NCBI RefSeq assembly: GCF_008728195.1
Contig: NZ_CP031598.1
Location: 3,968,001-4,032,000, forward strand
Length of the DNA stretch: 64,000 nucleotides
Reading direction: 5' to 3'
DNA from: Roseovarius indicus
GTDB taxonomy: Bacteria; Pseudomonadota; Alphaproteobacteria; Rhodobacterales; Rhodobacteraceae
A program made the translations under genes and the position numbers. The notes beneath the pieces are model-generated. The model was not told where the DNA came from, did no database searches, and was given only the letters and a program-made list of their open reading frames with translations. Below are positions 8,601 through 21,285 of this stretch, piece after piece (positions within the stretch are counted from its first letter, which is position 1; each line of letters opens with the position of its first letter).

Positions 8601-8698
8601 GGGGCGTGTGCGGGGCCGCTGACGTCACGGGGCAGACCCGCGGCGCAGACCCTTTGTCAATGCAATACAAGCCGGTCTTGCTCTCCCGCCGTTGAGGA

Positions 8699-8861
8699 GC
8701 CGCGCATCGACGGGCCGTGGCGCGGCGAACCGACGGTGATAGCTGCCAGTTTATGCCTGCCAAGTACATCCAACTTTCGAGCGTGGCACTCCAATTGCCA
8801 AATCGCCGTGCCGTCGGGACGGCCCGTCGATGCGCGGCGGGCTTCGCCCTTTGTTCCGCGC
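8699..8861 (+). repeat. Structured dispersed element, copy 1
   Basis: Terminal arms (GCCGCGCATCGACGGGCC, extended by GT; 8699-8718 and 8819-8838) are a perfect 20-bp inverted repeat separated by 100 bases. Inner CCGACGG (8730-8736) can pair with CCGTCGG (8811-8817). The right arm is followed by a GGGC-TTC-GCCC hairpin and a TTCCGCGC tail. The 100-base core shares CGGCGAACC, TTTAT, CCAA, ACATCC and AATCGCC with the other copies. It lies 98 bases upstream of the rplO promoter, in the 489-base gap between rplO and the VWA gene; the rest of that gap shows nothing further. Confidence 0.8.
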
Positions 8862-8963
8862 AGGGCCATCCAGAACCGAAATCTCGCGGCGCGCGGTCCC
8901 AGCCGAATCCGCCCCCCACCAAACCCGATTGATTTCTCGCCCTCCGCGTTATCTCCTTCCCCC

Positions 8964-9674
8964 ATGACCCTCCGCGCCGCCCTCCTCGCCTCGGCCCTCG
9001 CCCTATCGGCCAGCCCCGCCGCCCCAAGCTGCGCCGCCGATGCCATGCTGGTCTTCGACGGCTCCGCCTCCATGGCCGAGATCGGCGCCGACGCCACCGC
9101 CCCCACCCGCATCGCCGAGGCCCGCACCGCGCTCCACCGCGCCATGCCCCAGATCGCCCCCTTTCGCCGCGTGGGCCTCCTCGTCTACGGCCCCGGCGGC
9201 ACCGAAAGCTGCACCGGCATCGACCTGCGCTTCCCACCCATCCCCGACGCCGCCGACGCGGTGACAGGCGCCATCGACACCCTGGCGCCGCAGGGCCTCA
9301 CGCCGCTCGCCGCCTCCGTTCTCGCCGCCGCCGAAACGCTGGACTACCGCGGCACCCCTGGCATCGTGGTGCTGGTCACCGACGGCAACGAAACCTGCGG
9401 CGGCCGCCCCTGCGCCCTCGGCGCGACACTGGCGGCGGAAGGCTATGACCTCACCGTCCACGTCATCGGCTTCCGCGTGGTCTACGACCCGTTCAGCTGG
9501 AACAGCCCCGAGGCCGAGGGCTATGACGGCATGACCGTCGCCAAATGCCTCGCCGACCGGACGGGCGGCATGTACGTCTCCACCGAAACCGTCGACGAAC
9601 TGGCGGCCGCCCTGCGCGAGACGCTGGGCTGTGCGCTGATCGGTCGGGCCCGCCCCGGCCCCCGCGCCGGCTGA
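8964..9674 (+). CDS. Exported von Willebrand factor A domain protein
   Basis: A 236-residue protein with a signal peptide (MTLRAALLASALALSASPAA) and one VWA domain. The metal-ion adhesion site is complete: DGSAS in MLVFDGSASMAEI, the Thr in QGLTPLAAS and the Asp in VLVTDGNETC. Several Cys (SCAAD, ESCTG, TCGGRPCA, AKCLAD, LGCALI) point to disulfides in the periplasm. It probably binds a ligand or partner protein through a divalent metal; the partner is unknown. It is the only plus-strand gene in this part of the ribosomal protein array, with marC convergent to it. Confidence 0.8.
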   Translation: MTLRAALLASALALSASPAAPSCAADAMLVFDGSASMAEIGADATAPTRIAEARTALHRAMPQIAPFRRVGLLVYGPGGTESCTGIDLRFPPIPDAADAVTGAIDTLAPQGLTPLAASVLAAAETLDYRGTPGIVVLVTDGNETCGGRPCALGATLAAEGYDLTVHVIGFRVVYDPFSWNSPEAEGYDGMTVAKCLADRTGGMYVSTETVDELAAALRETLGCALIGRARPGPRAG

Positions 9675-9758
9675 CCGTGGGGTGGGTAAAACCCACTGCT
9701 GCCCTACCCCGCGCCTGACCGTGGGGTGGGTAAAACCCACCGCTGCGCTACCCCGCCC
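9671..9758. repeat. 44-bp direct tandem duplication containing two GTGGGGTGGGT palindromes
   Basis: The unit starting CTGACCGTGGGGTGGGTA is repeated exactly 44 bases later with three substitutions and ends in CTACCCCGC. Each unit contains the palindrome GGTGGGTaaaACCCAC. It lies between the convergent VWA gene and marC, overlaps the stop codons of both, and could act as a two-way transcription barrier. Confidence 0.75.
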
Positions 9759-10392
9759 CGGCGAGGTTCAGCACACCGACAACCTCCAGCCCGTTCAGCA
9801 CCGAATCCACCGCCACCGTCGCCAGGATCATCCCCATCACCCGGCTGATCACGTTGGCGCCGACGCTGCCGATCACCCGCTTCAGCGGGCCTGCCATCAG
9901 CAGAAGCAGCAGGGTGATCAGCAGGACCAGCATCAACAAGCCGGCCGTAACCGCCTGATCCGGAATGGAATTCCGGTTGTTATCGGTCAGGATGACAATC
10001 GCCAGCATCGCCCCCGGCGAGGCGATCGACGGCATCGCCAGCGGGAACACCGCGCCGCTCATGTGGTCTTTCTCGGCCGCCTCGATCTCGCGCTCGGCCT
10101 TGGGGTCGCCAAAGATCATCTGCAACGCGAAGATGAACAGGATCAGCCCGCCCGCGATCTGGAACGACCCGAGCCTGAGCCCGATCGCCTCGAGCACGAT
10201 CTGCCCCAGCACGAGGAACGCCATCAGCACGATCGCGGCCACAACCACGCCCCGCACGGCCAGCTTCCAATGCAGCTTCTCCGGCACACCCGCAGCGGCG
10301 AAATAGAACACCGGCAGCGTGCCGATCGGGTCGATCACGACGAAGAGCGTGATGAACTCACGGATCAGGGTTTCAAGGTCAATGGCGGGCAA
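9748..10392 (-). CDS. MarC-family integral membrane protein
   Basis: About 214 residues with six predicted membrane helices. The family blocks are FVVIDPIGTLPVFYFAAAG at the start, FALQMIFGDPKAE, and PLAMPSIASPGAMLAIVILTD in the middle. The biochemical role of MarC proteins is unsettled; an early link to multiple antibiotic resistance was not upheld. The frame is open upstream. A TTG at 10392 with GGAGA nine bases before it gives the family-length N-terminus, so this start is preferred but not certain. It follows rpmD after a strong terminator, so it probably has its own promoter. Confidence 0.8.
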   Translation of the reverse strand: MPAIDLETLIREFITLFVVIDPIGTLPVFYFAAAGVPEKLHWKLAVRGVVVAAIVLMAFLVLGQIVLEAIGLRLGSFQIAGGLILFIFALQMIFGDPKAEREIEAAEKDHMSGAVFPLAMPSIASPGAMLAIVILTDNNRNSIPDQAVTAGLLMLVLLITLLLLLMAGPLKRVIGSVGANVISRVMGMILATVAVDSVLNGLEVVGVLNLAGAG

Positions 10393-10544
10393 TTCGGCGG
10401 GTCTCCGGGGGGCTTTTCCCCTTGTGGCAGAAGGTCCGCGCCGGAGCAACGGGAGGAATGCCGCAGCCCCCCGGGCCGGCCCCCGAGCCGGGACCTCGCG
10501 CGGCGCCTTCGGCGCTATTCGGGCGGGCACCGTCACACAACCCC

Positions 10545-10581
10545 AAAAGAAAAACGCCCCGGCCATCACTGACCGGGGCGT
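10545..10581 (-). terminator. Terminator after rpmD
   Basis: ACGCCCCGG (10554-10562) pairs with CCGGGGCGT (10573-10581) around a ten-base loop. On the minus strand it is followed by TTTTCTTTT. It closes the rpmC-rpmD unit. Confidence 0.85.
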
Positions 10582-10585
10582 CTAT

Positions 10586-10609
10586 CCGTAGGGTGGGTGT
10601 CAACCCACC
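10586..10609 (+). repeat. GTAGGGTGGGT palindrome
   Basis: GTAGGGTGGGT, three bases, AACCCACC, placed directly between the rpmD stop and its terminator hairpin. Confidence 0.75.
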
Positions 10610-10619
10610 TCACCCAAAC

Positions 10620-10808
10620 TCAACCGCGCTCTTCGACGATTTCCACCAGGTGCGGGATCTTGTTGATCATGCCGCGCACCGAGGGGGTGTCTTCCAGCTC
10701 ACGGGTCTTGTGCATCTTGTTCAGCCCCAGGCCAACGAGCGTGGCGCGCTGTTCCTTGGGGCGGCGGATGGGAGAGCCCACCTGCTTGACGACGATGGTT
10801 TTGGCCAT
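10620..10808 (-). CDS. rpmD: 50S ribosomal protein L30
   Basis: A 62-residue L30 with [26 protein letters not shown], the conserved core of the short bacterial form. It lies 12 bases after rpsE and is the last gene of its unit, followed by a palindrome and a terminator instead of rplO. Confidence 0.96.
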
Positions 10809-10820
10809 GTCCCTGTCTCC

Positions 10821-11399
10821 TTACGCTTCCGCGGCCGTGTCGGCCGGGTGTTCGCCCTTCGGACCTTCATCCCGTTTCAGGATGTCGGCGACCTTCTTGC
10901 CGCGGCGCTGTGCCACGTGACGCGGGCTTGCCTGGAACTGCAGCGCGTCCAGCGTGGCACGGATCATGTTGTAGGGGTTCTGCGTGCCGACCGACTTGGC
11001 CACCACGTCCTGAACACCCAGCATCTCGAACACGGCACGCATCGGACCACCGGCGATGATACCGGTACCTTGCGGGGCGGTGCGCATGATCACCTTGCCG
11101 GCGCCGTGACGGCCGTAACCGTCATGGTGCAGCGTGCGGCCTTCGCGCAGCGGCACGCGGATCATGCCGCGCTTGGCTTGCTCGGTGGCCTTGCGGATCG
11201 CCTCGGGCACCTCTTTGGCCTTGCCCTTGCCGAAACCCACGCGGCCCTTCTGGTCGCCCACGACGACGAGAGCTGCAAACCCGAAGCGCTTGCCGCCCTT
11301 CACGGTTTTCGAAACACGGTTGATCGCGACAAGGCGATCGGCGAATTCCGGCGCTTCGTCGCGATCGCGACCTCCGCGGCGGTTGTCATCTCTTGCCAT
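10821..11399 (-). CDS. rpsE: 30S ribosomal protein S5
   Basis: A 192-residue S5. The double-stranded RNA-binding domain is seen in [27 protein letters not shown]. The C-terminal domain is seen in [28 protein letters not shown]. The sequence at the spectinomycin-sensitive loop ([11 protein letters not shown]) is wild type. An acidic tail ([12 protein letters not shown]) extends the C-terminus slightly. The 118-base gap to rplR contains a GGCGCTCCGG/CCGGGGCGCC hairpin. Confidence 0.97.
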
Positions 11400-11517
11400 C
11401 TGGCATCCTTTCCTGGCGCCCTCACGGGCCTAGAATTTGTCCAATCCAGGTGTCGAAAGGCCTCGTGCCCCCGACCCGGATCATCGAGGCGCCCCGGTAG
11501 ACCGGAGCGCCTGCGCC

Positions 11518-11877
11518 TTAGATTTTCAGGCCGCCTTCGCGCGCGGCATCCGCCAGCGCCTTGATCCGGCCGTGAAACAGGAACCCGCCGCGGTCGAACT
11601 GGGCTTCGGTGATGCCCGCCGCCTTGGCACGTTCTGCGATGGTGGCGCCGATCTTCTTCGCCGCATCCATCGTGTTCTTGCCGACGAAGCCGAGATCCTT
11701 CTCGAGCGTCGAGGCCGAAGCCAGGGTGACGCCGTTCACATCGTCGATGATCTGCACGCTCATGTTTTTCGACGAGCGGTGCACGCTCAGGCGCGGACGC
11801 CCGGCATTGACCTTGCGAAGTTTGCTCCGAACGCGCAGGCGGCGTTTCTGGAACAGTTGTCTTTTGCTGTTTGCCAT
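11518..11877 (-). CDS. rplR: 50S ribosomal protein L18
   Basis: A 119-residue L18, the 5S rRNA-binding protein. Recognised by [20 protein letters not shown] and the C-terminal [26 protein letters not shown], both diagnostic. It follows rplF by 11 bases in standard spc order. Confidence 0.97.
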
Positions 11878-11888
11878 CTGTCGCGTCC

Positions 11889-12422
11889 TTACTTCTTCTT
11901 GCCTTCCTTCTGGAAGATATACTCGCCCTTGTAGCGGATGCCCTTGCCCTTGTAGGGCTCCGGGCGCCGCCAGTCGCGGATATTGGCCGCGACTTCACCG
12001 ACGAGCTGCTTGTCATGGCCCTCGACCACCAGTTCGGTGGGCTTCGCGGCCGTAACAGTGATACCTTCCGGGATCGGGAAATCGACGTCGTGCGACAGGC
12101 CGAGGTTCAGTTTCAGGATGTTGCCCTGAACCTGTGCCCGGTAACCGACGCCCTGGATTTCGAGCTCTTTCTTGAAGGGCTCTTTCGATCCGTGAACCAG
12201 GTTGGCGATGATCGTGCGGCTCATGCCCCACTGCTGACGCGCGCGCTTGGATTTGCCGCGCGGCGCAACGGTGATCTGGCCGTCCTCGATCGCGATGGTG
12301 ACGTCATCGGTGAAGGTGAAGCTTTTCGTCTGCTTCGGGCCTTTCACCTCGATCGTCTGGCCGCTGAGCGAGGCAGTGACGCCATCGGGCAGGGCCACGG
12401 GTTGTTTACCGATACGAGACAT
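11889..12422 (-). CDS. rplF: 50S ribosomal protein L6
   Basis: A 177-residue L6. The N-terminus [15 protein letters not shown] and the C-terminal [26 protein letters not shown] (rRNA-contacting) are typical. Two repeated alpha-beta domains of about 80 residues each fit the family. It lies 12 bases after rpsH. Confidence 0.97.
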
Positions 12423-12434
12423 AATCAGGCCTCC

Positions 12435-12827
12435 TTAGAATACGGTGCAAAGCACTTCGCCGCCAACGTTGGCCGCCCGTGCGTTTGCATCCGACATCAC
12501 ACCCTGCGGGGTCGAGACAATCGACACGCCGAGGCCCTGACGGACCGACGGAATGTCCTTGACGCCCATGTAAACCCGGCGGCCGGGCTTCGAGACCCGC
12601 TTCATCTCGCGGATGGCGGGGGCGCCTTCGAAATACTTCAGGCTGACCTCGATCGCGGGGTGGCCGCGGCTGTCGGTGGCATCTTCGAAGCCACGGATAT
12701 AGCCCTCGTCCGCCAGCACGTTCAGCACGCGCACGCGCATCTTCGAGGCCGGCACCATGACGGTGGACTTGCCGCGCATGCCCGCGTTGCGGATACGGGT
12801 CAGCATATCGCCGATAGGATCGTTCAT
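12435..12827 (-). CDS. rpsH: 30S ribosomal protein S8
   Basis: A 130-residue S8, which binds the central domain of 16S rRNA and in E. coli represses the spc operon. N-terminal [17 protein letters not shown] and C-terminal [25 protein letters not shown] are conserved. It lies 13 bases after rpsN. Confidence 0.97.
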
Positions 12828-12840
12828 CTCATGTCCCTCC

Positions 12841-13146
12841 TTACCAGCTCGACTTGACCACGCCCGGCATCTGACCGGCCGAGCCCAGGTCGCGCAGGGC
12901 GATCCGGCTGACTTTCAGCTTCCGGTAGTAGGCATGCGGCCGGCCGGTGAGCTGGCAGCGGTTATGCAGGCGGGTGGCCGAGCTGTTGCGCGGCAGTTCC
13001 GCCAGCTTGAGCGAGGCACGGAAGCGTTCTTCCATCGGCTTCGACTCGTCGCTGATGATTTCCTTCAGAGCGGCACGCTTGGCGGCGTATTGCTTCACCA
13101 GGCGCTGACGCTTCTTCTCGCGTTCGATCATTGCTTTTTTAGCCAT
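12841..13146 (-). CDS. rpsN: 30S ribosomal protein S14 (zinc-free form)
   Basis: A 101-residue S14, the longer zinc-independent type with no CXXC pairs. Diagnostic segment: [20 protein letters not shown], with the C-terminal [11 protein letters not shown]. It lies between rplE and rpsH in standard spc order. Confidence 0.97.
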
Positions 13147-13163
13147 GTCAAATTCCTCCCGGC

Positions 13164-13727
13164 TCAGCTGGTGAAGGGCATGTTGAAATGCTTCAACAGC
13201 GCCTTGGCTTCAGCGTCGGTCTTCGCCGTGGTTCCGATGATGATGTCCAGGCCCCAAACCTCGTCGACCTTGTCGAAGTTGATCTCGGGGAAGACGATGT
13301 GCTCCTTCAGGCCCAGGGCATAGTTGCCGCGGCCGTCGAAGGATTTGCCCGACACGCCGCGGAAGTCGCGGATCCGGGGCATCGCGATGGTGATCAGGCG
13401 ATCGAGGAATTCGTACATCCGGTCGCCGCGCAGGGTCACTTTCGCACCCAGCGGCATGTCTTCACGAACGCGGAAGCCGGCGATCGACTTCTTCGCCTTG
13501 GTGACGACGGCCTTCTGACCGGCGATCAGCGTCAGGTCTTCCTGGGCCGACTTGGCCTTCTTGGAATCCTTCACCGCCTCGGCGCCGCAGCCGATGTTCA
13601 GAACGATCTTGTCCAGCCGCGGGATCATCATGTCGTTCGTGTAACCGAACTCTTCCTTCATCGCGGGGCGGATCGTCTCGCGGAACTGCTGGCGCAGGCG
13701 CGGGGTGTAATTCTCGGTATCAAGCAT
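13164..13727 (-). CDS. rplE: 50S ribosomal protein L5
   Basis: A 187-residue L5, which binds 5S rRNA and forms an inter-subunit bridge with S13. Conserved segments are [16 protein letters not shown] and [22 protein letters not shown]. The start ATG overlaps the end of rplX by eight bases, consistent with tight coupling. Confidence 0.97.
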
Positions 13728-14031
13728 CGATCACGTCCCCCGTGGTCTTGGCGAAACGCACCTTCTTGTCGCCGTCCATCTTGAAACCGACGCGGGTGGG
13801 TTTGCCGTTCTTGTCGAGCATCGCCAGGTTGCTCAGGTCAATCGGCATCGCCTTGGGAAGGCGGCCGCCCTGGCTCTGCTGGCTCTGGCGGGTGTGGCGG
13901 ATGGCCATGTTCACGCCGTCGACGACGGCCTTGCCGGCTTTCGGGTCGACGGAAGTGATCGTGCCTTCCTTGCCCTTGTCCTTGCCGGAGATCACGACGA
14001 CCTTGTCGCCCTTCTTGAGTTTAGCAGCCAT
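13720..14031 (-). CDS. rplX: 50S ribosomal protein L24
   Basis: A 103-residue L24, the assembly initiator of the large subunit. The KOW motif is [18 protein letters not shown] near the N-terminus, and [18 protein letters not shown] follows. It is separated from rplN by one base and overlaps rplE. Confidence 0.97.
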
Positions 14032-14032
14032 C

Positions 14033-14401
14033 TTACAGCACCTCCGGGGCGAGCGAGATGATTTTCATGTAGTTCTTCGCGCGCAGCTCGCGGACGACCG
14101 GCCCGAAGATACGGGTGCCGATCGGGTCACCTGCGTTGTTCAGGATGACGGCGGCATTGCGGTCGAAGCGGATTGCGGTGCCGTCTTCACGACGGATTTC
14201 CTTGGCGGTGCGCACGACGACGGCCTTGCGGACATCGCCTTTCTTCACGCGGCCGCGCGGGATGGCTTCCTTCACCGAGACGACGATCACGTCGCCGACG
14301 GAGGCATACTTGCGTTTGGAACCACCCAGGACCTTGATGCACTGAACTTTCCGGGCACCGGAATTGTCAGCCACATCCAGATTGGTCTGCATCTGGATCA
14401 T
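14033..14401 (-). CDS. rplN: 50S ribosomal protein L14
   Basis: A 122-residue L14. [27 protein letters not shown] and [28 protein letters not shown] are canonical. It lies 66 bases after rpsQ in standard order. Confidence 0.98.
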
Positions 14402-14467
14402 TTGGTTTCTCCCGACCTTTAGGGTAACGACCCCAGGGTTTCGCTCAAACCGGGTGTGCGAGAGCCT

Positions 14468-14698
14468 TTAGGCTTCCAGCACCTCCCAGCGTTTCGTTTT
14501 CGACTTGGGCGCGCATTCGATGATGCGCACGCTGTCGCCCACCTTGTAGGTGTTCTTCTCGTCGTGAGCCCGGTACTTCTTGGACTTACGAATGGTTTTT
14601 TGCAGCACGGGGTGCTTGAAGCGGCGCTCGACCGAAACGGTGACGGTTTGCGCGTTCGCGTCGGAGGTCACGACGCCTTGCAGGATACGCTTGGGCAT
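14468..14698 (-). CDS. rpsQ: 30S ribosomal protein S17
   Basis: A 76-residue S17 (OB fold, 16S rRNA 5' domain). [27 protein letters not shown] and [22 protein letters not shown] are conserved. It lies 11 bases after rpmC. Confidence 0.97.
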
Positions 14699-14709
14699 GG
14701 GTGGCCTCC

Positions 14710-14913
14710 TTATTCCGCAGCCGCGGAAGCGGCTTTTTCGTTGAGCACGGTCAGCACGCGCGCGACGTTGCGGCGCACCGATTTCATGCGGGCGGGGTTC
14801 TCAAGCTGACCGGTCGCGGCCTGAAAGCGCAGGTTGAACTGCTCTTTCTTGAGGTTGACCAGCTCTTCACGCAGCTGGTCGGGCGTTTTGTCACGCAGCT
14901 CTGCAGCGTTCAT
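14710..14913 (-). CDS. rpmC: 50S ribosomal protein L29
   Basis: A 67-residue L29, located at the peptide exit. Contains [50 protein letters not shown], the two-helix hairpin of the family. It normally follows rplP directly. Here it begins its own unit, 3.3 kb away from rplP, behind a candidate promoter. Confidence 0.97.
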
Positions 14914-15040
14914 GTCGCCATCGTCCTTCTCTCAAAACACCGGTCGGCCCCTGACGATTGGCTCAGGGTCACCTGCAAACCCGGTGGATGAATTGCAAAC
15001 AAGCGAATCCCGGGGTCACCCCGGGCTCGCGGATTTGGGC

Positions 15041-15069
15041 TCTATAAGGGAGGTGCGGGCTCGGGGCAA
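15041..15069 (-). promoter_or_regulatory. rpmC: Candidate promoter of rpmC-rpmD
   Basis: On the minus strand TTGCCC (15069-15064), 17 bases, TATAGA (15046-15041). The leader to rpmC would be about 120 bases. The 404-base gap 14914-15317 contains this promoter, one GTAGGGTGGGT palindrome and copy 2 of the structured element. Confidence 0.6.
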
Positions 15070-15086
15070 GGGGGAAGTTCCGATTT

Positions 15087-15110
15087 CCGTAGGGTGGGTG
15101 CGAACCCACC
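15087..15110 (+). repeat. GTAGGGTGGGT palindrome abutting structured element copy 2
   Basis: GTAGGGTGGGT, three bases, AACCCACC. It ends 17 bases before the left arm of the structured element, the same spacing as at copy 3. Confidence 0.8.
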
Positions 15111-15127
15111 TTGCGGCCGGACGAGAA

Positions 15128-15290
15128 GCCGCGCATCGGCGGGCCGCGGTGCGGCGAACCAACGGCGGTGGACGCCACTTTATCCTGGCCAAACACATCC
15201 ACCCTCACGACGTCGCGCCGACCTCACCAAATCGCCGTGCCGTCGGGGCGGCCCGTCGATGCGCGGCGGGCTTCGCCCTCGATTCCGCGC
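15128..15290 (+). repeat. Structured dispersed element, copy 2
   Basis: Left arm GCCGCGCATCGGCGGGCCGC (15128-15147) and right arm GCGGCCCGTCGATGCGCGGC (15248-15267) are separated by 100 bases. Nineteen of 20 positions pair; the remaining one is G.U if the plus strand is RNA but C.A on the minus strand. The inner arm pair relative to copy 1 changes from T-A to C-G. GGGC-TTC-GCCC and the GATTCCGCGC tail follow. It is upstream of the rpmC promoter. Confidence 0.82.
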
Positions 15291-15317
15291 GGGGAAAAAA
15301 CCGAACCGTGTACTTGC

Positions 15318-15938
15318 CTACCCCCACCCGTAATTGAAGCTCACCGAGATCCGGTCATCCTCGGCCATGTTCGCCGGCACCTCGTGCCTGAGCCAGCTTT
15401 CCCACAGCAGAACGTCCCCCACCTTCGGCGCCTCGTAGATGAACGTCCGCAGCTCCCGCCTTGCCCCCTTCACCCGTGCCGGCGCCGCCATCATCCGGGC
15501 CGAGCGTGGGTCTTCCAGCTTCAGCGCGCTCGCCCCGTCGGGCATCGCCACGTAGGTCGTGCCGGAAATCACCGAATGGGGGTGGATATGGCTGCCATGG
15601 CTGCCCCCCTCCGGCAGGATGTTGATCCAGATATCCTCGAGCTTCAGCTCCCGCCCGTCGAGGTCGAACTCCAGGTCCTCGGCGAACGCCGCCACATGCG
15701 CATCGAGCGCCTTGACCACATCCGCAAAGATCGGAAACCGCCACGGCAGGTCGGTCAGCGACGCATAGGAGGTATAGCCCGGATACCCGTTCTCCTCGCA
15801 CCAGTCCTGCCCCGCCTCGTCATCCTCGGCGATGGAATAACACGACGCTTCCAGCTCATCGGCATTGATGGAAGGCCCGTGCTCGCTGAGCGCAGCACGG
15901 TAGAGGCGGGTGACGAAAAGCGAGTCGATCTGTGGCAT
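15318..15938 (-). CDS. Putative 2-oxoglutarate/Fe(II) oxygenase (TIGR02466-type)
   Basis: A 206-residue protein resembling the TIGR02466 / 2OG-FeII_Oxy_5 family. The iron-binding region is seen as GGSHGSHIHPHSVISGTTYV, the distal part as SWLRHEVPANMAEDDRISVSFNYGWG (second His and the Arg that holds 2-oxoglutarate). EDIWINILPEG is also typical. Members are predicted hydroxylases; the substrate is unknown. It is convergent with no gene and lies head-to-head with the methyltransferase at 16048, from which it is separated by 109 bases. Family assignment is from memory of the motif pattern. Confidence 0.7.
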   Translation of the reverse strand: MPQIDSLFVTRLYRAALSEHGPSINADELEASCYSIAEDDEAGQDWCEENGYPGYTSYASLTDLPWRFPIFADVVKALDAHVAAFAEDLEFDLDGRELKLEDIWINILPEGGSHGSHIHPHSVISGTTYVAMPDGASALKLEDPRSARMMAAPARVKGARRELRTFIYEAPKVGDVLLWESWLRHEVPANMAEDDRISVSFNYGWG

Positions 15939-16047
15939 GCCCCTCTCCTAGCCCACCCCGCGCCCCGGTGCGAGAGGCCAATCGCCGCCGTTGAGATTTG
16001 CGCCCCCATGCGGGATAGTCCGCTCAGCCACACGAGGGAGACACCAC

Positions 16048-16743
16048 ATGGCCGGATGGATCAGCCGCCTCCGCGCCCGCCGCAAGGCGCGGGCCCTGAC
16101 GCTCTACCGCTCGGCCATCTCCGACATCGACCTCGCATTGCAGCAAGAGGCCACCCGCACCACTGCCGCCTATGTCCGGCAAAACATGTACACCGTGCAA
16201 TCCGTCAACCGCTGGCGCGCGGTGCATGACGTGGCCATCTCCCATGTCACGCTCGACGGGCTCGTCCTCGAATTCGGCGTCTACAAGGCCCGCACCACCC
16301 GCTACATCGCCGGAAAACGCGACTGGCACCTGCACGGCTTCGACAGTTTCGACGGCCTCCCCGAACCCTGGCGCGACGGCTTCCCCGAGGCCAAGTTCTC
16401 CCGCCCCTCCCTGCCCGACGTGCCGGAAAACGTCACCCTCCATGTCGGCCTCTTCGACCAGACCCTGCCGGCCTTCCTCGCCGCCCTGCCCTCTGCCGAC
16501 CCCCCCGTGGCCTTTCTCCACATCGACAGCGACCTCTACAGCTCCGCCAGGACCATCTTCGACGCGCTCGGCCCCCGCATCGTCACCGGCACGGTCATCG
16601 TCTTCGACGAGTATTTCAACTACAGCGGCTGGGAAGATGGCGAATACAAAGCCTTCCAGGAGTTCGTGGCGGCCCGCGGCCTCACCTACAACTACCTCAC
16701 CTACAACCACGAACACCAACAGGTGGCGGTGAGGATTACGTAG
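16048..16743 (+). CDS. TylF-like class I SAM-dependent methyltransferase
   Basis: A 231-residue protein. Motif I is LVLEFGVYKARTTRYIA, the acidic post-I region is HGFDSFDGLPE, and the metal/acceptor region is FLHIDSDLYSS and VIVFDEYFNYSGWEDGEYKAFQEF. This pattern is that of the TylF/MycF macrocin-O-methyltransferase-like superfamily, often found in glycan or natural product modification. The ATG at 16048 was chosen because GAGGGAG precedes it by six bases. The stop codon TAG is contributed by a GTAGGGTGGGT repeat, so the original C-terminus may have been different. Confidence 0.75.
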   Translation: MAGWISRLRARRKARALTLYRSAISDIDLALQQEATRTTAAYVRQNMYTVQSVNRWRAVHDVAISHVTLDGLVLEFGVYKARTTRYIAGKRDWHLHGFDSFDGLPEPWRDGFPEAKFSRPSLPDVPENVTLHVGLFDQTLPAFLAALPSADPPVAFLHIDSDLYSSARTIFDALGPRIVTGTVIVFDEYFNYSGWEDGEYKAFQEFVAARGLTYNYLTYNHEHQQVAVRIT

Positions 16744-16761
16744 GGTGGGTGCCAACCCACC
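16739..16761 (+). repeat. GTAGGGTGGGT palindrome supplying the methyltransferase stop codon
   Basis: The repeat begins inside the last codons of the methyltransferase, and its TAG (16741-16743) is the in-frame stop. The 450-base gap up to 17194 also holds a GGTCCCGGC/GCCGGGACC palindrome (about 16780-16802), a decayed second repeat at about 16864, and the low-GC fragment described next. Confidence 0.75.
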
Positions 16762-16886
16762 GTGGTCCCCCACGAACACCGGTCCCGGCCCCGAGCCGGG
16801 ACCTTTTGCCAGGCAGAGGCCCCCGGGTCAAAACCGTGGCGGGCAGACCACGCAACATTCCAAAGGGTGGGTACCAACCGACTACC

Positions 16887-17114
16887 CTACCAAATCGATA
16901 GCACCGACCCTGTGAATATCAAACTGAACGCGGTAAGAAGTCGCTCTTGCCGGATTTGCAGATGGTTATCGGCTACTGCCACCGATGCGCATAGCCGTCG
17001 ATTTCGTGCAAAAAAGGATTCAAGTTCTTCCCCATACACGCCTAAGCGGGCAGCTTTCGTCAGTTGGGGTTGAGGGAACCTTGTTGTGGCTCTTGGAACT
17101 TCGTTTTCAAAATG
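16887..17114 (-). pseudogene. Possible remnant of a low-GC protein gene
   Basis: The minus strand has a 75-codon open stretch ending at TAG (16889-16887) that reads like natural protein (for example AARLGVYGEELESFFARN and RQERLLTAFSLIFTGSVL). The opposite strand gives the Ser/Arg-rich text typical of antisense. No ATG, GTG or TTG in a sensible place and no Shine-Dalgarno were found, and a stop lies just upstream. It may be the 3' remnant of a gene from the same foreign low-GC segment as the gene at 17195. No family was recognised. Confidence 0.3.
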
Positions 17115-17194
17115 ACACTATTCACAAGCACGCACGCTGCAGGCCAATGTGCAATAAGATCATACTTTTTATCCCGACGATTTAAGGAGGAAGA

Positions 17195-18073
17195 ATGTCT
17201 GAAACCGAGCGATTGAATGATGAAATCAAAGAGCTGAAAAGAATAGTAACCCGCCATGATCGAGTCATCTTTCTGGCGTACGCAATTTTTGCATTGGCAA
17301 TCGGTGGGGGGTTGTTCGGCGCCCACGTCTTCAACTCGTATAAACAGGCCCTGGAAGACCGCAAGACAGAATACGAGACAGCCGCTTCCGAAAGCCTTGC
17401 GCGCATTCAAGAAGTGCAAAACAAAGCGATGGCCGGTTTGGAGACTACTCCCTTGCTTTCCAAAGAGTATGTCATGGAGCAAATCAACGCCATGGGCATT
17501 GCCGACGAAATTACAAACAAGACACAAGAGAAACTCACGGCAATCGAGAAGCGCGTCGACGCACTTTCTTCGACCTTGGCGGATTTGCCTCTATCGGAAC
17601 GCCCCCAGGTGGCCGGGAAGAATCCATCTTACGACAGAATAAGAACCCGCAACCTGATTATCGAAGATCCGGAAGGCAACGCTCTCATTGAGATGACAAG
17701 CTGGGATGGGATTCCGAAATTAGTATTTCAGAACTCTCAACGCCAAAAACTAATTGAATTTATTGGCAAAGATGGCCAGCCCAGAGTTTTTCTCTTCAAA
17801 CCATCGGGCGCCGTAGAGGGTTCGGAAGAGGACGATGTTCGAATGGAACTCGGATACTCCACCAGCATGGGCACAACCGATATCGCAGGTCCATACATCT
17901 ACATGTTTGATGATAATAACGACAAAATTCTAGGCCTATGGGCCACCGCGGATTCCAGTGCTCTTGCACATTACGAAGACGGTCAGATCGTACTTCAGCA
18001 CAGAGCGGAATACGTTGACGGCAAGTTCGTGGGAAACAACCATTGGGAAAAAGAACTGGAAGAAAACGAGTAA
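17195..18073 (+). CDS. Low-GC membrane-anchored coiled-coil protein of unknown function
   Basis: A 292-residue protein. The N-terminus is cytoplasmic and charged (MSETERLNDEIKELKRIV), followed by one membrane helix (VIFLAYAIFALAIGGGLFGAHVF), a coiled-coil stretch to about residue 120, and a beta-rich C-terminal domain (RNLIIEDPEGNALIEMTSWDG and following). A strong TAAGGAGG lies six bases before the ATG. Its base composition is visibly AT-richer than the surrounding genes, and codon use includes AAA, TTA and ATA codons rare elsewhere in the window, so it was probably acquired laterally. It sits inside the rplP|rpmC cut. No family was recognised. Confidence 0.6.
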   Translation: MSETERLNDEIKELKRIVTRHDRVIFLAYAIFALAIGGGLFGAHVFNSYKQALEDRKTEYETAASESLARIQEVQNKAMAGLETTPLLSKEYVMEQINAMGIADEITNKTQEKLTAIEKRVDALSSTLADLPLSERPQVAGKNPSYDRIRTRNLIIEDPEGNALIEMTSWDGIPKLVFQNSQRQKLIEFIGKDGQPRVFLFKPSGAVEGSEEDDVRMELGYSTSMGTTDIAGPYIYMFDDNNDKILGLWATADSSALAHYEDGQIVLQHRAEYVDGKFVGNNHWEKELEENE

Positions 18074-18099
18074 TCTAAACAAAGCCTCCAACAAACCAA

Positions 18100-18127
18100 A
18101 ACCCCCGCCGATCTCTCGACGGGGGTT
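18100..18127 (-). terminator. Terminator after rplP
   Basis: AACCCCCGCCGA (18100-18111) pairs over 12 bp (one wobble) with TCGACGGGGGTT (18116-18127) around a TCTC loop. On the minus strand it is followed by TTGGTTTGTTGG. It closes the rplB-rplP unit and also lies downstream of the convergent gene at 17195. Confidence 0.75.
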
Positions 18128-18207
18128 CCGAATTCTCTCGGGCGAGGCGGCCCGCAGATTTCTTCGAAATCCGCACCACCGCCTGCGCCATTCGCAAGCG
18201 AAAGACC

Positions 18208-18621
18208 TTACCAGTCTTCCTTGACCACGATGCGGGTCTTGATCGGCAGCTTCATCGCGGCAAGGCGCAGGGCCTCTTTCGCGATGGCGTCGGAAACGCC
18301 GTCGATCTCGAACATCACCCGGCCGGGCTTGACCTTGCAGGCCCAGAAATCGACCGAGCCCTTACCCTTACCCATCCGCACTTCGGTGGGCTTCGAGGTC
18401 ACCGGGGTATCCGGGAAGATCCGGATCCAGACCCGGCCCTGACGCTTCATGTGACGCGTCATGGCCCGGCGGGCGGCCTCGATCTGGCGCGCGGTGACGC
18501 GCTCGGGCTGGGTTGCCTTGAGCCCATAGGTGCCGAAGTTCAGGTCGGAGCCGCCTTTGGCTTCGCCCTTGATCCGGCCCTTGAACTGCTTGCGGAATTT
18601 AGTGCGCTTCGGTTGCAGCAT
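18208..18621 (-). CDS. rplP: 50S ribosomal protein L16
   Basis: A 137-residue L16, near the peptidyl transferase centre. Recognised by [19 protein letters not shown] and [27 protein letters not shown] (the motif hydroxylated by YcfD in E. coli). Normal length. It is the last gene of the rplB-rplP unit, where rpmC would be expected next. Confidence 0.98.
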
Positions 18622-18634
18622 CTCTTATCCCTCC

Positions 18635-19342
18635 TCAGCGGCGGCCACCGGCGCCACGGGGCGCGGGACCATCCTGAAGTTCCTGGGCCTTGCGATCACG
18701 GGCCGACGGGTCGTGCTCCATGATCTCGCCTTTGAAGATCCAGACCTTGATGCCGATGATGCCGTAAGGCGTGGACGCCTCGGAATGGGCATAATCGATA
18801 TCGGCACGCAGGGTGTGGAGCGGCACGCGGCCCTCGCGGTACCACTCGGTGCGGGCGATCTCGGCGCCGCCAAGGCGGCCTGCCACGTTCACCCGGATAC
18901 CCAGCGCACCCATGCGCATGGCGTTCTGCACGGCCCGTTTCATCGCACGGCGGAAGCTGACCCGGCGCTCGAGCTGCTGGGCGATGCTTTCGCCAACCAG
19001 CGCGGCGTCAAGCTCGGGCTTGCGCACTTCGACGATGTTGAGGTGCAGTTCGCTGTCGGTCATCTTCGCCAGCTTCTTGCGCAGGCTCTCGATATCGGCG
19101 CCTTTCTTGCCGATGATCACGCCCGGGCGCGCGGTGTGCACCGTGACGCGGCACTTCTTGTGCGGACGCTCGATGATCACGCGGCTGACGCCGGCCTGCT
19201 TGCACTCTTCCTTGATGAACTCACGGATCTTGACGTCTTCCAGAAGAAGATTGCCGTAATCCTTCGTATCGGCATACCAGCGACTGTCCCAGGTGCGGTT
19301 CACCTGCAGGCGCATGCCAATCGGATTGACTTTGTTACCCAT
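18635..19342 (-). CDS. rpsC: 30S ribosomal protein S3
   Basis: A 235-residue S3 of the mRNA entry site. The KH domain is [22 protein letters not shown] (GxxG as GKKG). The N-terminus [23 protein letters not shown] is canonical. Overlaps rplV by one base. Confidence 0.98.
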
Positions 19343-19722
19343 TAGGCTTGCTCCTCGACTTCACGCACCTTGATTGTCAGCTCCGAGAACGGCTTCATGA
19401 TCCGCCCGAACCGGCCGCGTGCCCGCGGACGACCGCGTTTCATGACCAGGTTCTTGCCCACATAGGCCTCGGCGACGATCAGCTCGTCGACGTCCAGGTT
19501 GTGGTTGTTCTCGGCATTCGCGATGGCGGACTGAAGGCATTTCTTCACGTCCAGCGCGATCCGCTTCTTCGAGAAGGTCAGGTCGCTCAGCGCCTTGTCG
19601 ACCTTCTTGCCCCGGATCATCGCGGCAACCAGGTTGAGTTTCTGCGGGCTGGTGCGCAGCATGCGCAGCTTCGCCATCGCTTCGTTGTCCGCCACGCGGC
19701 GGGGATTTTTCTCCTTGCCCAT
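19342..19722 (-). CDS. rplV: 50S ribosomal protein L22
   Basis: A 126-residue L22. Its beta-hairpin lines the exit tunnel and is seen around [16 protein letters not shown], the macrolide-relevant loop. Conserved N-terminal segment [21 protein letters not shown]. Four bases after rpsS. Confidence 0.97.
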
Positions 19723-19725
19723 GGC

Positions 19726-20004
19726 TTACTTCCTCTTGGCTTTCTTGTCAGCCGCGTGCCCGTAATAGGTCCGCGTCGGTGCGTATTCCCCGAATTTCTG
19801 GCCGATCATGTCTTCGTTGACCAGAACCGGAACGTGTTTCTGACCGTTATAGACGCCAAACGTCAGGCCCACGAACTGGGGCAGGATCGTCGAGCGGCGC
19901 GACCAGATCTTGATGACTTCCTTGCGCCCGCTTTCGCGCGTTGCCTCGGCCTTTTTCAGGACGTAGGCATCGACAAAGGGGCCTTTCCATACAGAACGTG
20001 CCAT
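19726..20004 (-). CDS. rpsS: 30S ribosomal protein S19
   Basis: A 92-residue S19 of the 30S head. [20 protein letters not shown] and [24 protein letters not shown] are invariant in the family. Three bases after rplB. Confidence 0.98.
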
Positions 20005-20007
20005 GTC

Positions 20008-20850
20008 TTAGCGGCCCTTCTTCCGTGCGTGACGCGAGCGCAGGATAAGCTTCTGCGACGCCTTGTTGGTGTTGCGGGTGCGCTTGCCCTTGGTGGGCTT
20101 GCCCCACGGCGTGACCGGGTGGCGGCCACCCGAGGTGCGGCCCTCACCACCACCGTGCGGGTGGTCGATCGGGTTCATCACGACACCGCGGACAGAGGGG
20201 CGGATGCCCTTGTGGCGCATGCGGCCGGCCTTGCCGTAATCCTGGTTGCTGTTGTCGGGGTTCGACACGGCACCCACGGTGGCCTTGCACTCCTGGCGCA
20301 CCATCCGCAGCTCGCCCGAGCTCAGGCGGATCTGCGCATAGCCGCCGTCACGACCGACGAACTGGGCATAGGTGCCCGCGGCGCGTGCGATCTGGCCGCC
20401 CTTGCCGGGCTTCAGCTCGATGTTGTGAACGATCGTCCCGATCGGCATGCCGGAAAACGGCATCGCGTTGCCCGGCTTGATGTCGGCGCGTTCCGACGAG
20501 ACGACGCTGTCGCCGATCGCCAGCCGCTGCGGGGCCAGGATATAGGACTGTTCGCCATCCTCGTAGCGGATGAGCGCGATGAAGGCCGTCCGGTTCGGGT
20601 CGTATTCGATCCGTTCGACGGTGGCGGCCACATCGAATTTGTTGCGTTTGAAATCGACGATCCGGTAGAGCCGTTTGGCCCCGCCACCGCGGCGGCGTGC
20701 AGTGATACGTCCGGTGTTGTTCCGGCCGCCCGACTTGGTCAGACCCTCGGTGAGGGCCTTGACGGGGCGTCCTTTGTACAGCTCCGAACGGTCGATCAGC
20801 ACCAGCCCGCGCTGGCCCGGCGTCGTCGGTTTATACGACTTGAGTGCCAT
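20008..20850 (-). CDS. rplB: 50S ribosomal protein L2
   Basis: A 280-residue L2, essential for peptidyl transferase centre assembly. Conserved segments include [22 protein letters not shown] and the C-terminal [30 protein letters not shown] with the key His. It starts a new unit after a terminator that follows rplW. Confidence 0.98.
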
Positions 20851-21013
20851 GCTTTCTGTCTTCCGTTAGCTAACGGCGGATCGGGATCCGCCTATGTGAT
20901 AAGCCCCCCGAAGGTGGCCAGGTATGTAGGGCCCCGAAGGTCCCCGGTTCGTGATGTTCTTGCGAACAATAAAAACACAGCCCCAGACGAATCCGGGGCG
21001 GCGCAGATGGGTC

Positions 21014-21042
21014 CGTTTAAGCGAGAGACCCGAGCGGGTCAA
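21014..21042 (-). promoter_or_regulatory. rplB: Candidate promoter of rplB-rplP
   Basis: On the minus strand TTGACC (21042-21037), 17 bases, TAAACG (21019-21014). It lies between structured element copy 3 and rplB, with a leader of about 155 bases. The rest of the 561-base gap 20851-21411 holds the palindrome, the element and the rplW terminator. Confidence 0.65.
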
Positions 21043-21080
21043 GCGATTAAGGGCAGAAATGCGCCGCCGGCCGCCGTGCG

Positions 21081-21104
21081 CCGTAGGGTGGGTGCAAACC
21101 CACC
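21081..21104 (+). repeat. GTAGGGTGGGT palindrome abutting structured element copy 3
   Basis: GTAGGGTGGGT, three bases, AACCCACC, ending exactly 17 bases before the element's left arm. A decayed second copy (GGCAGGTGCCAACTCACC) lies beyond the element's other end at about 21300-21318. Confidence 0.8.
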
Positions 21105-21121
21105 TTTGCCCCGGCCGCAAA

Positions 21122-21285
21122 GCCGCGCGATCGCCAGGCCGCGGGATGGCGAACCGACGCTCGTGTTGGGCACTTTATCCCTCCAAACCGAAAAACCTCC
21201 GACCGTCGCGCTGCCCTCTCCCAATCGCCAGCCCGTCGGGGCGGCCTGGCGATCGCGCGGCGGGCTGAAGCCCTTGATTCCGCGC
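21122..21285 (+). repeat. Structured dispersed element, copy 3
   Basis: Terminal arms (21122-21142 and 21241-21261) are a perfect 21-bp inverted repeat separated by 98 bases. The arm sequence differs from copies 1 and 2 (GCGATCGCCAGG instead of GCATCGACGGG), and every change is matched in the opposite arm. The 3' hairpin is GGGCT-GA-AGCCC instead of GGGC-TTC-GCCC, again compensated. Core blocks GGCGAACCGACG, CACTTTATCC, CCAAA and AATCGCC are shared. Confidence 0.82.

Follow-up and report, generated by a model that had tools for sequence, protein, structure and literature searches.

What is the palindromic element that occurs three times in a stretch of 64,000 nucleotides from Roseovarius indicus (the whole stretch is called the window here), and what has kept its long arms paired while their sequences diverged? 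An initial annotation, made from the sequence alone, offered a mobile element, a structured RNA or an insulator. Our analysis favours the first two jointly: with moderate confidence, the repeat is taken to be a small mobile element of the Rhodobacteraceae that functions through its plus strand in folded, single-stranded form, most likely as RNA. Since the constraint falls on a single strand, we do not favour a two-way insulator. The repeat is found in about half of 295 Rhodobacteraceae genomes, evolves as structured RNAs do, turns over as mobile elements do, and lies outside Rfam.

Selection on the folded plus strand

The reported sequence and coordinates of the three copies match the letters of the window, and the terminal arms, described as lying 98-100 bases apart, were measured to be 95-100% complementary. 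The element is ~165 nt long. Its outer stem P1, of about 20 bp, continues into P2, 10 bp inside P1, to give a ~30-bp bipartite hairpin interrupted on its 3' side by a single 6-nt bulge. About 73 nt form the apical domain, which carries a near-invariant TTTAT plus GCC, GC and AAA blocks, and the right arm is followed on its 3' side by a small hairpin, P3, then usually by TTGATT and CCGCGC. Positions below are window positions; bit scores come from covariance model R1, built from 29 copies (21 from this genome, 8 from other genomes).

8697..8861, plus strand: copy 1, model positions 1-165, 183.6 bits
8699-8718/8819-8838, plus strand: P1 of copy 1, arms 100% complementary, 100 nt between them
8719-8728/8803-8812, plus strand: P2 of copy 1, with bulge at 8813-8818 and TTTAT at 8750-8754
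8839-8849, plus strand: P3 hairpin of copy 1, with tail CCGCGC at 8856-8861
8832..8861, plus strand: alternative 3' hairpin of copy 1, right-arm GCGCGG and tail CCGCGC enclosing P3, which excludes the P1 base
15126..15290, plus strand: copy 2, 166.5 bits
15128-15147/15248-15267, plus strand: P1 of copy 2, arms 95% complementary, 100 nt between them
15148-15157/15232-15241, plus strand: P2 of copy 2, with bulge at 15242-15247 and TTTAT at 15179-15183
15268-15278, plus strand: P3 of copy 2, with tail at 15285-15290
21120..21285, plus strand: copy 3, 147.6 bits
21122-21142/21241-21261, plus strand: P1 of copy 3, arms 100% complementary, 98 nt between them
21143-21152/21225-21234, plus strand: P2 of copy 3, with bulge at 21235-21240 and TTTAT at 21174-21178
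21262-21273, plus strand: P3 of copy 3, with tail at 21280-21285

The pair changes first remarked on in these copies are present in the sequence: a T-A pair in copy 1 is C-G in copy 2, one pair of copy 2 is G·U and possible only on the plus strand, the arms of copy 3 are of another sequence and still paired, and the small hairpin after the right arm covaries. The GGCGA/TCGCC pairing proposed as a pseudoknot is real but corresponds to P2; since it is nested inside P1, with the single bulge on its 3' side, the pseudoknot was rejected.

Covariation was measured in two alignments. In A3, a MAFFT alignment of 29 sequences, 95.9% of cells pair, and 41 cells hold changes on both sides of a pair, as compared to 13.4 after shuffling and 4 or fewer in slid versions. 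In A6, comprising 104 copies fitted to the model, 95.9% of cells at 34 pairs are paired; double-change cells number 298, where shuffles give 73.9 and slid versions no more than 46. A6 and a further alignment, A4, lean toward the structure of the model to which they were fitted; the MAFFT-made A3 agrees. The observed covariation was reached by none of 500 shuffles, so that the covariation test named in the initial annotation finds compensatory changes in excess of expectation.

Wobble pairs identify the strand. They were counted at the 34 pairs in 95 of the 99 best copies (among 111 matches), the four with inserts in the arms being left out, and comprised 156 G·U and 9 A·C cells next to 2937 Watson-Crick and 116 other cells. 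Equal numbers of G·U and A·C would be expected if both strands mattered equally; the plus strand is therefore selected as a single strand, and it is the strand that folds. Among the 26 copies whose neighbouring genes both lie on the opposite strand, the count is 49 G·U versus 0 A·C. Compensatory changes beyond chance and plus-strand wobbles, two signs of a structured RNA, are both found. For a single strand selected in every genomic setting, RNA is the simplest form, the alternative being single-stranded DNA.

Copies kept in place can be compared directly, as five have a counterpart at the same site of Roseovarius sp. CCMP836_Bin15 (G353; CCMP836 below), window copy 2 among them. The CCMP836 copies of pairs 1-3 were found by an exact pattern spanning the right half and two further pairs were added from a stretch of the own genome; the left stem is the fair count because pairs 1-3 were picked by that right-half pattern. 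Over all five pairs, 4 of 158 left-stem positions are substituted versus 58 of 361 in the apical domain (P 2.7e-6). In pairs 1-3, substitutions number 4/204 in stems, 0/18 in tails and 4/50 in other loops, 33/222 in apical domains and 82/470 in the 80-nt flanks, apical and flank rates being alike (P 0.44). In pair 5 the own right arm is interrupted by inserts. A Pseudosulfitobacter pair (L178/L182), scored on a crude region map and kept outside these totals, gives 8/96 in stems, loops and tail, 19/68 in the apical domain and 44/151 in the flank. Few left-stem and many apical substitutions in the five in-place copies indicate that the stem is selected where it stands. Selection on structure, implied at the outset from three copies, is strongly supported by the covariation, the one-sided wobbles and this slow change of stems. 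A coding reading was rejected, since the length of the apical domain varies, by eye, regardless of frame.

Distribution and gene context

The initial annotation had placed a three-copy repeat at breaks of a ribosomal protein array. The repeat is real, but the count was too small: the three copies are members of a dispersed ~165-nt family. BLAST with copy 2 returned full or near-full copies, with identities of 73-87%, from either strand of the 5.4-Mb chromosome. R1 gave 51 matches in this genome at E up to 0.01, those listed all lying on contig 1: 39 down to E 2.3e-8, including insert-bearing copies and one internally deleted copy, then nine weak opposite-strand matches on known copies and three fragments. 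BLAST at E 1e-4 matched 25 of 35 congeneric genomes and none of 24 other genomes of the class. At E 1e-3, R1 matched 144 of 295 Rhodobacteraceae genomes, own included, in a set of roughly one genome per genus. A covariance-model search of the kind first suggested thus yields 39 matches here and more across the family; copy numbers are lower bounds, because both R1 scans scored part of the first-look candidates (150 in this genome; 9 per genome in the set of 295). In a class-wide draw 4 of 385 genomes matched, all four of them Rhodobacteraceae (own included), the kinship of the rest being known in part. Plasmid records with BLAST matches were 91 from Pseudosulfitobacter and 1 from Salipiger, while phage records gave no match to the element and viral contigs none to two exact patterns of it. 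With copies spread over the chromosome, and present on plasmids in other genera as well, their association with ribosomal genes is incidental. By Pfam, copy 1 has as neighbours an L15-family gene and a VWA-domain gene, copy 2 has L29 and a 2OG-Fe(II) oxygenase gene, and copy 3 has L23 and L2. An L2-Alphaproteobacteria ribosomal leader was found by Rfam search at window 20853-20919, upstream of rplB, with 67 bits; across congeners, the gap between rplW and rplB in which it lies ranges from about 50 nt to >1 kb.

Along the chromosome, a 1.41-Mb stretch (C1:580475-1989804) lacks all 39 copies (with an even-spread null, the largest gap has P 0.00045). This stretch falls inside one arm, away from the terminus, and clustering at the origin or terminus was rejected. 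Uneven spread, together with the palindromic arms, would suit a double-stranded DNA site acting through protein binding, a cruciform or an insulator. Such a site is nevertheless highly improbable given that wobbles are tolerated on one side and that subfamilies have exchanged arm sequences with pairing kept.

Placement was scored for the 99 best copies against genes from our own codon-usage gene caller. None overlaps a called gene by >10 nt. The flanking genes are convergent at 44 copies, both antisense at 26, both sense at 19 and divergent at 4, with one side uncalled at 6. Stop codons come within 30 nt of a copy in 33 of 138 cases (15 among 65 left-hand plus genes, 18 among 73 right-hand minus genes), start codons in 1 of 54. 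This proximity to gene ends and avoidance of starts, along with a GC-rich 3' hairpin followed by TTGATT, would be expected of a 3'-untranslated-region (3'-UTR) device that terminates or stabilises the upstream gene's mRNA. We consider that improbable, since tandem pairs are antisense at 26 copies and sense at 19 and the plus-strand constraint is equally strong in antisense copies. Replication gave no bias either, with 19 leading- and 20 lagging-strand copies among 39 (tallied by hand, with the terminus placed at ~2.85 Mb from sampled skew), and a replication-strand preference was rejected. A sense 3'-UTR role and a lagging-strand route are both without support because neither difference, sense/antisense or leading/lagging, was seen.

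Site turnover and a possible two-state fold

Comparison of related genomes points to mobility. Upstream of rplB, at the copy 3 site, 10 of 30 congeneric loci match, one of them partially, and every match has the same orientation with respect to rplB. Only 48-57 nt separate the aligned rplB and rplW stretches in five genomes, and the CCMP836 copy at this site has arms quite unlike those of copy 3. Elsewhere, one CCMP836 site spans about 190 bp where this genome has 22 bp and no clean scar; at a second, the counterpart in this genome is truncated, of different appearance and on the other strand. Around the own copy at C1:577302, a stretch of 1,045 bp corresponds to 187 bp in CCMP836 that hold, by eye, no element. 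On Pseudosulfitobacter plasmids with matching flanks about 97% identical, subfamily A on one strand is replaced by subfamily B on the opposite strand in the same place, at two such sites. Three features of a miniature inverted-repeat transposable element (MITE), namely terminal inverted repeats, dispersed copies and, by eye, no coding capacity, are present.

These data also bear on a selfish, non-autonomous transposon that would move as single-stranded DNA, its folded plus strand being the substrate of a transposase acting in trans and its structure being kept only because non-folding copies would fail to move. Dispersal, site turnover, intergenic position, a single-strand constraint independent of neighbouring transcription and the lack of a promoter signal would all follow. 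That transposon is somewhat unlikely, however: stems of place-kept copies are conserved while their apical domains change at the flank rate, the lagging strand is not preferred (20 versus 19), and Y1 transposase genes are absent from this genome and present in 26 of 295 family genomes, 14 of these 26 being carriers of the element (P 0.68). Y1 transposases were accordingly rejected as its partner.

For the mobile element with a folded, probably RNA, plus strand, a mechanism can be sketched. Copies would spread through a trans-acting enzyme that recognises the fold and would be transcribed at least at times; the long hairpin may present the TTTAT domain to a protein or RNA partner; and the right arm may swap between the 5' arm and the tail, giving two states. 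The tail CCGCGC is complementary to right-arm GCGCGG, and this pairing competes with the base of P1. Across 104 copies, pairing reaches 97.8% in the helix of right arm and tail, where a single pair is altered on both sides in 11 copies; at the base formed by left and right arm it reaches 97.1%, and 15 cells are double changes. Under strict six-letter complementarity, 90 of 99 right arms match their tail and 69 of 99 match their left arm, most departures on the left-arm side being wobbles. In L094, L097 and L068:2443 the three strands read CCGGGC/GCCCGG/CCGGGC, and in one copy CCGTGC/GCACGG/CCGTGC. Taken by itself, the alternative 3' hairpin of copy 1 has a folding energy of -14.4 kcal/mol, which 12 of 200 shuffles match. 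We infer that the two exclusive helices form a switch. A bolder version, tentative and on the whole unlikely, is a new class of mobile bistable RNA, in which transposing RNA genes would yield transcripts that switch between the TTTAT-displaying hairpin and the 3' hairpin, and an enzyme reading fold instead of sequence would let unlike subfamilies replace each other at the same sites.

Several results weigh against the mobile, RNA-like element and its switch. No clean insertion junction or scar was found at the occupied and unoccupied sites compared, and no mobilising enzyme was found, enzyme profiling having covered Y1 transposases only. A simple sigma-70 consensus is not enriched upstream of 98 copies, and tandem gene pairs have no sense or antisense preference (19 versus 26, P 0.37). 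The tail helix varies at essentially one pair; its covariation comes down to few events, a broad group with CCGGGC and a single copy with CCGTGC; for two of its five measures most shuffles do as well (354 and 481 of 500); and slid by 2 columns it scores 0.058 versus 0.070. Within the apical domain, scores of own pairs did not exceed those of crossed pairs (the smallest P among 21 tests was 0.0295, uncorrected), and helices there were rejected.

With this repeat one could ask how a small, protein-less element uses its fold to move, and whether bacterial repeats of the dispersed kind function as RNAs. The 29-copy covariance model is already usable for annotation.

Comparison with known systems and associated repeats

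The initial annotation recognised no known RNA family, which holds for Rfam 15: in a covariance-model search no family reached its gathering threshold, and the best sub-threshold overlap, that of RAGATH-31, lies on the minus strand in copy 3, with 21.3 bits versus 71.8 (E 3.6). Integron attC sites act as a folded single strand, with a long stem, an unpaired spacer and a sequence free to vary. The element would share these traits, but it lies outside cassette arrays, and no R/L boxes were noticed in it, though no search aimed at them was made. Repetitive extragenic palindromic (REP) elements with REP-associated tyrosine transposases (RAYT) have a GTAG tetranucleotide at the hairpin foot. The 5' foot of the element is RAGCCGCGC, without a conserved GTAG, and thus not that of a REP. 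REP elements and bacterial interspersed mosaic elements with their RAYT (Y1) transposases (PMC2817692) are likewise palindromic, intergenic and present in many copies, whereas the element is five times larger and its genome lacks a Y1 transposase, which is also unassociated with it across the family. The enterobacterial intergenic repeat units RU-1 (127 bp), RU-2 (168 bp) and RU-3 (103 bp), considered MITE-like (PMC2759123), are also small, intergenic, similar in size and without a protein of their own; the likeness is by description, and the element differs in its hosts, one-strand covariation and two exclusive helices. HRC-8-4, a Rhodobacterales-exclusive motif, shares the order and a stem with a conserved tip, but it is found chiefly between cco operons and fits a terminator stem (PMC8632094), whereas the element is dispersed. 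The portions of the literature searched, including PMC4809877, PMC5107571, PMC8632094 and PMC2864571, name no such repeat, supplements and subscription journals being outside that scope. Persistence of the long hairpin on one strand despite changing letters suggests an element of one large marine bacterial family that is so far unnamed, spreading and RNA-like.

Other repeats accompany the element. An outer stem, GCGGACATT/AATGTCCGC, was rejected as part of it, being present in a minority of copies and scoring overall not above crossed flanks, and is read as a separate repeat. Copies L042, L036, L040 and L103:1205-1376 are enclosed by this outer inverted repeat, GCGGACATT...AATGTCCGC, in varying letters, perhaps an older repeat used as a landing site. 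A ~40-bp hairpin (CTCGGCGATTGCnnnGCAATCGCCTGCCG) is inserted near one common point of the P1 stem in L013, L021, L024, L232:15898 and L236:3013, on the left-arm side in L013 and, in others, on the right-arm side. It is present in CCMP836 and absent from the own ortholog L002, with an exact junction. Among all loci compared, close matches to it were found only inside the element, and two loose hits elsewhere differ. L182 carries a different, 24-nt insert close to the same point. On Rhodobacterales plasmids (L177, L180, L188-L191), the sequence behind a PrlF-YhaV toxin-antitoxin pair is common up to about TGCGGAC or a few bases further, beyond which most of the compared records diverge from one another, a pattern resembling a joining hot spot. 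The 64 kb also hold eight exact copies of a REP-like hairpin, GTAGGGTGGGTnnnAACCCACC, with 0 expected:

2894, 10588, 15089, 16740, 21083, 38911, 50181 and 53533 (window positions): REP-like hairpin GTAGGGTGGGTnnnAACCCACC

Two of them lie just upstream of element copies 2 and 3, in a genome without a detected Y1 (RAYT-type) transposase.

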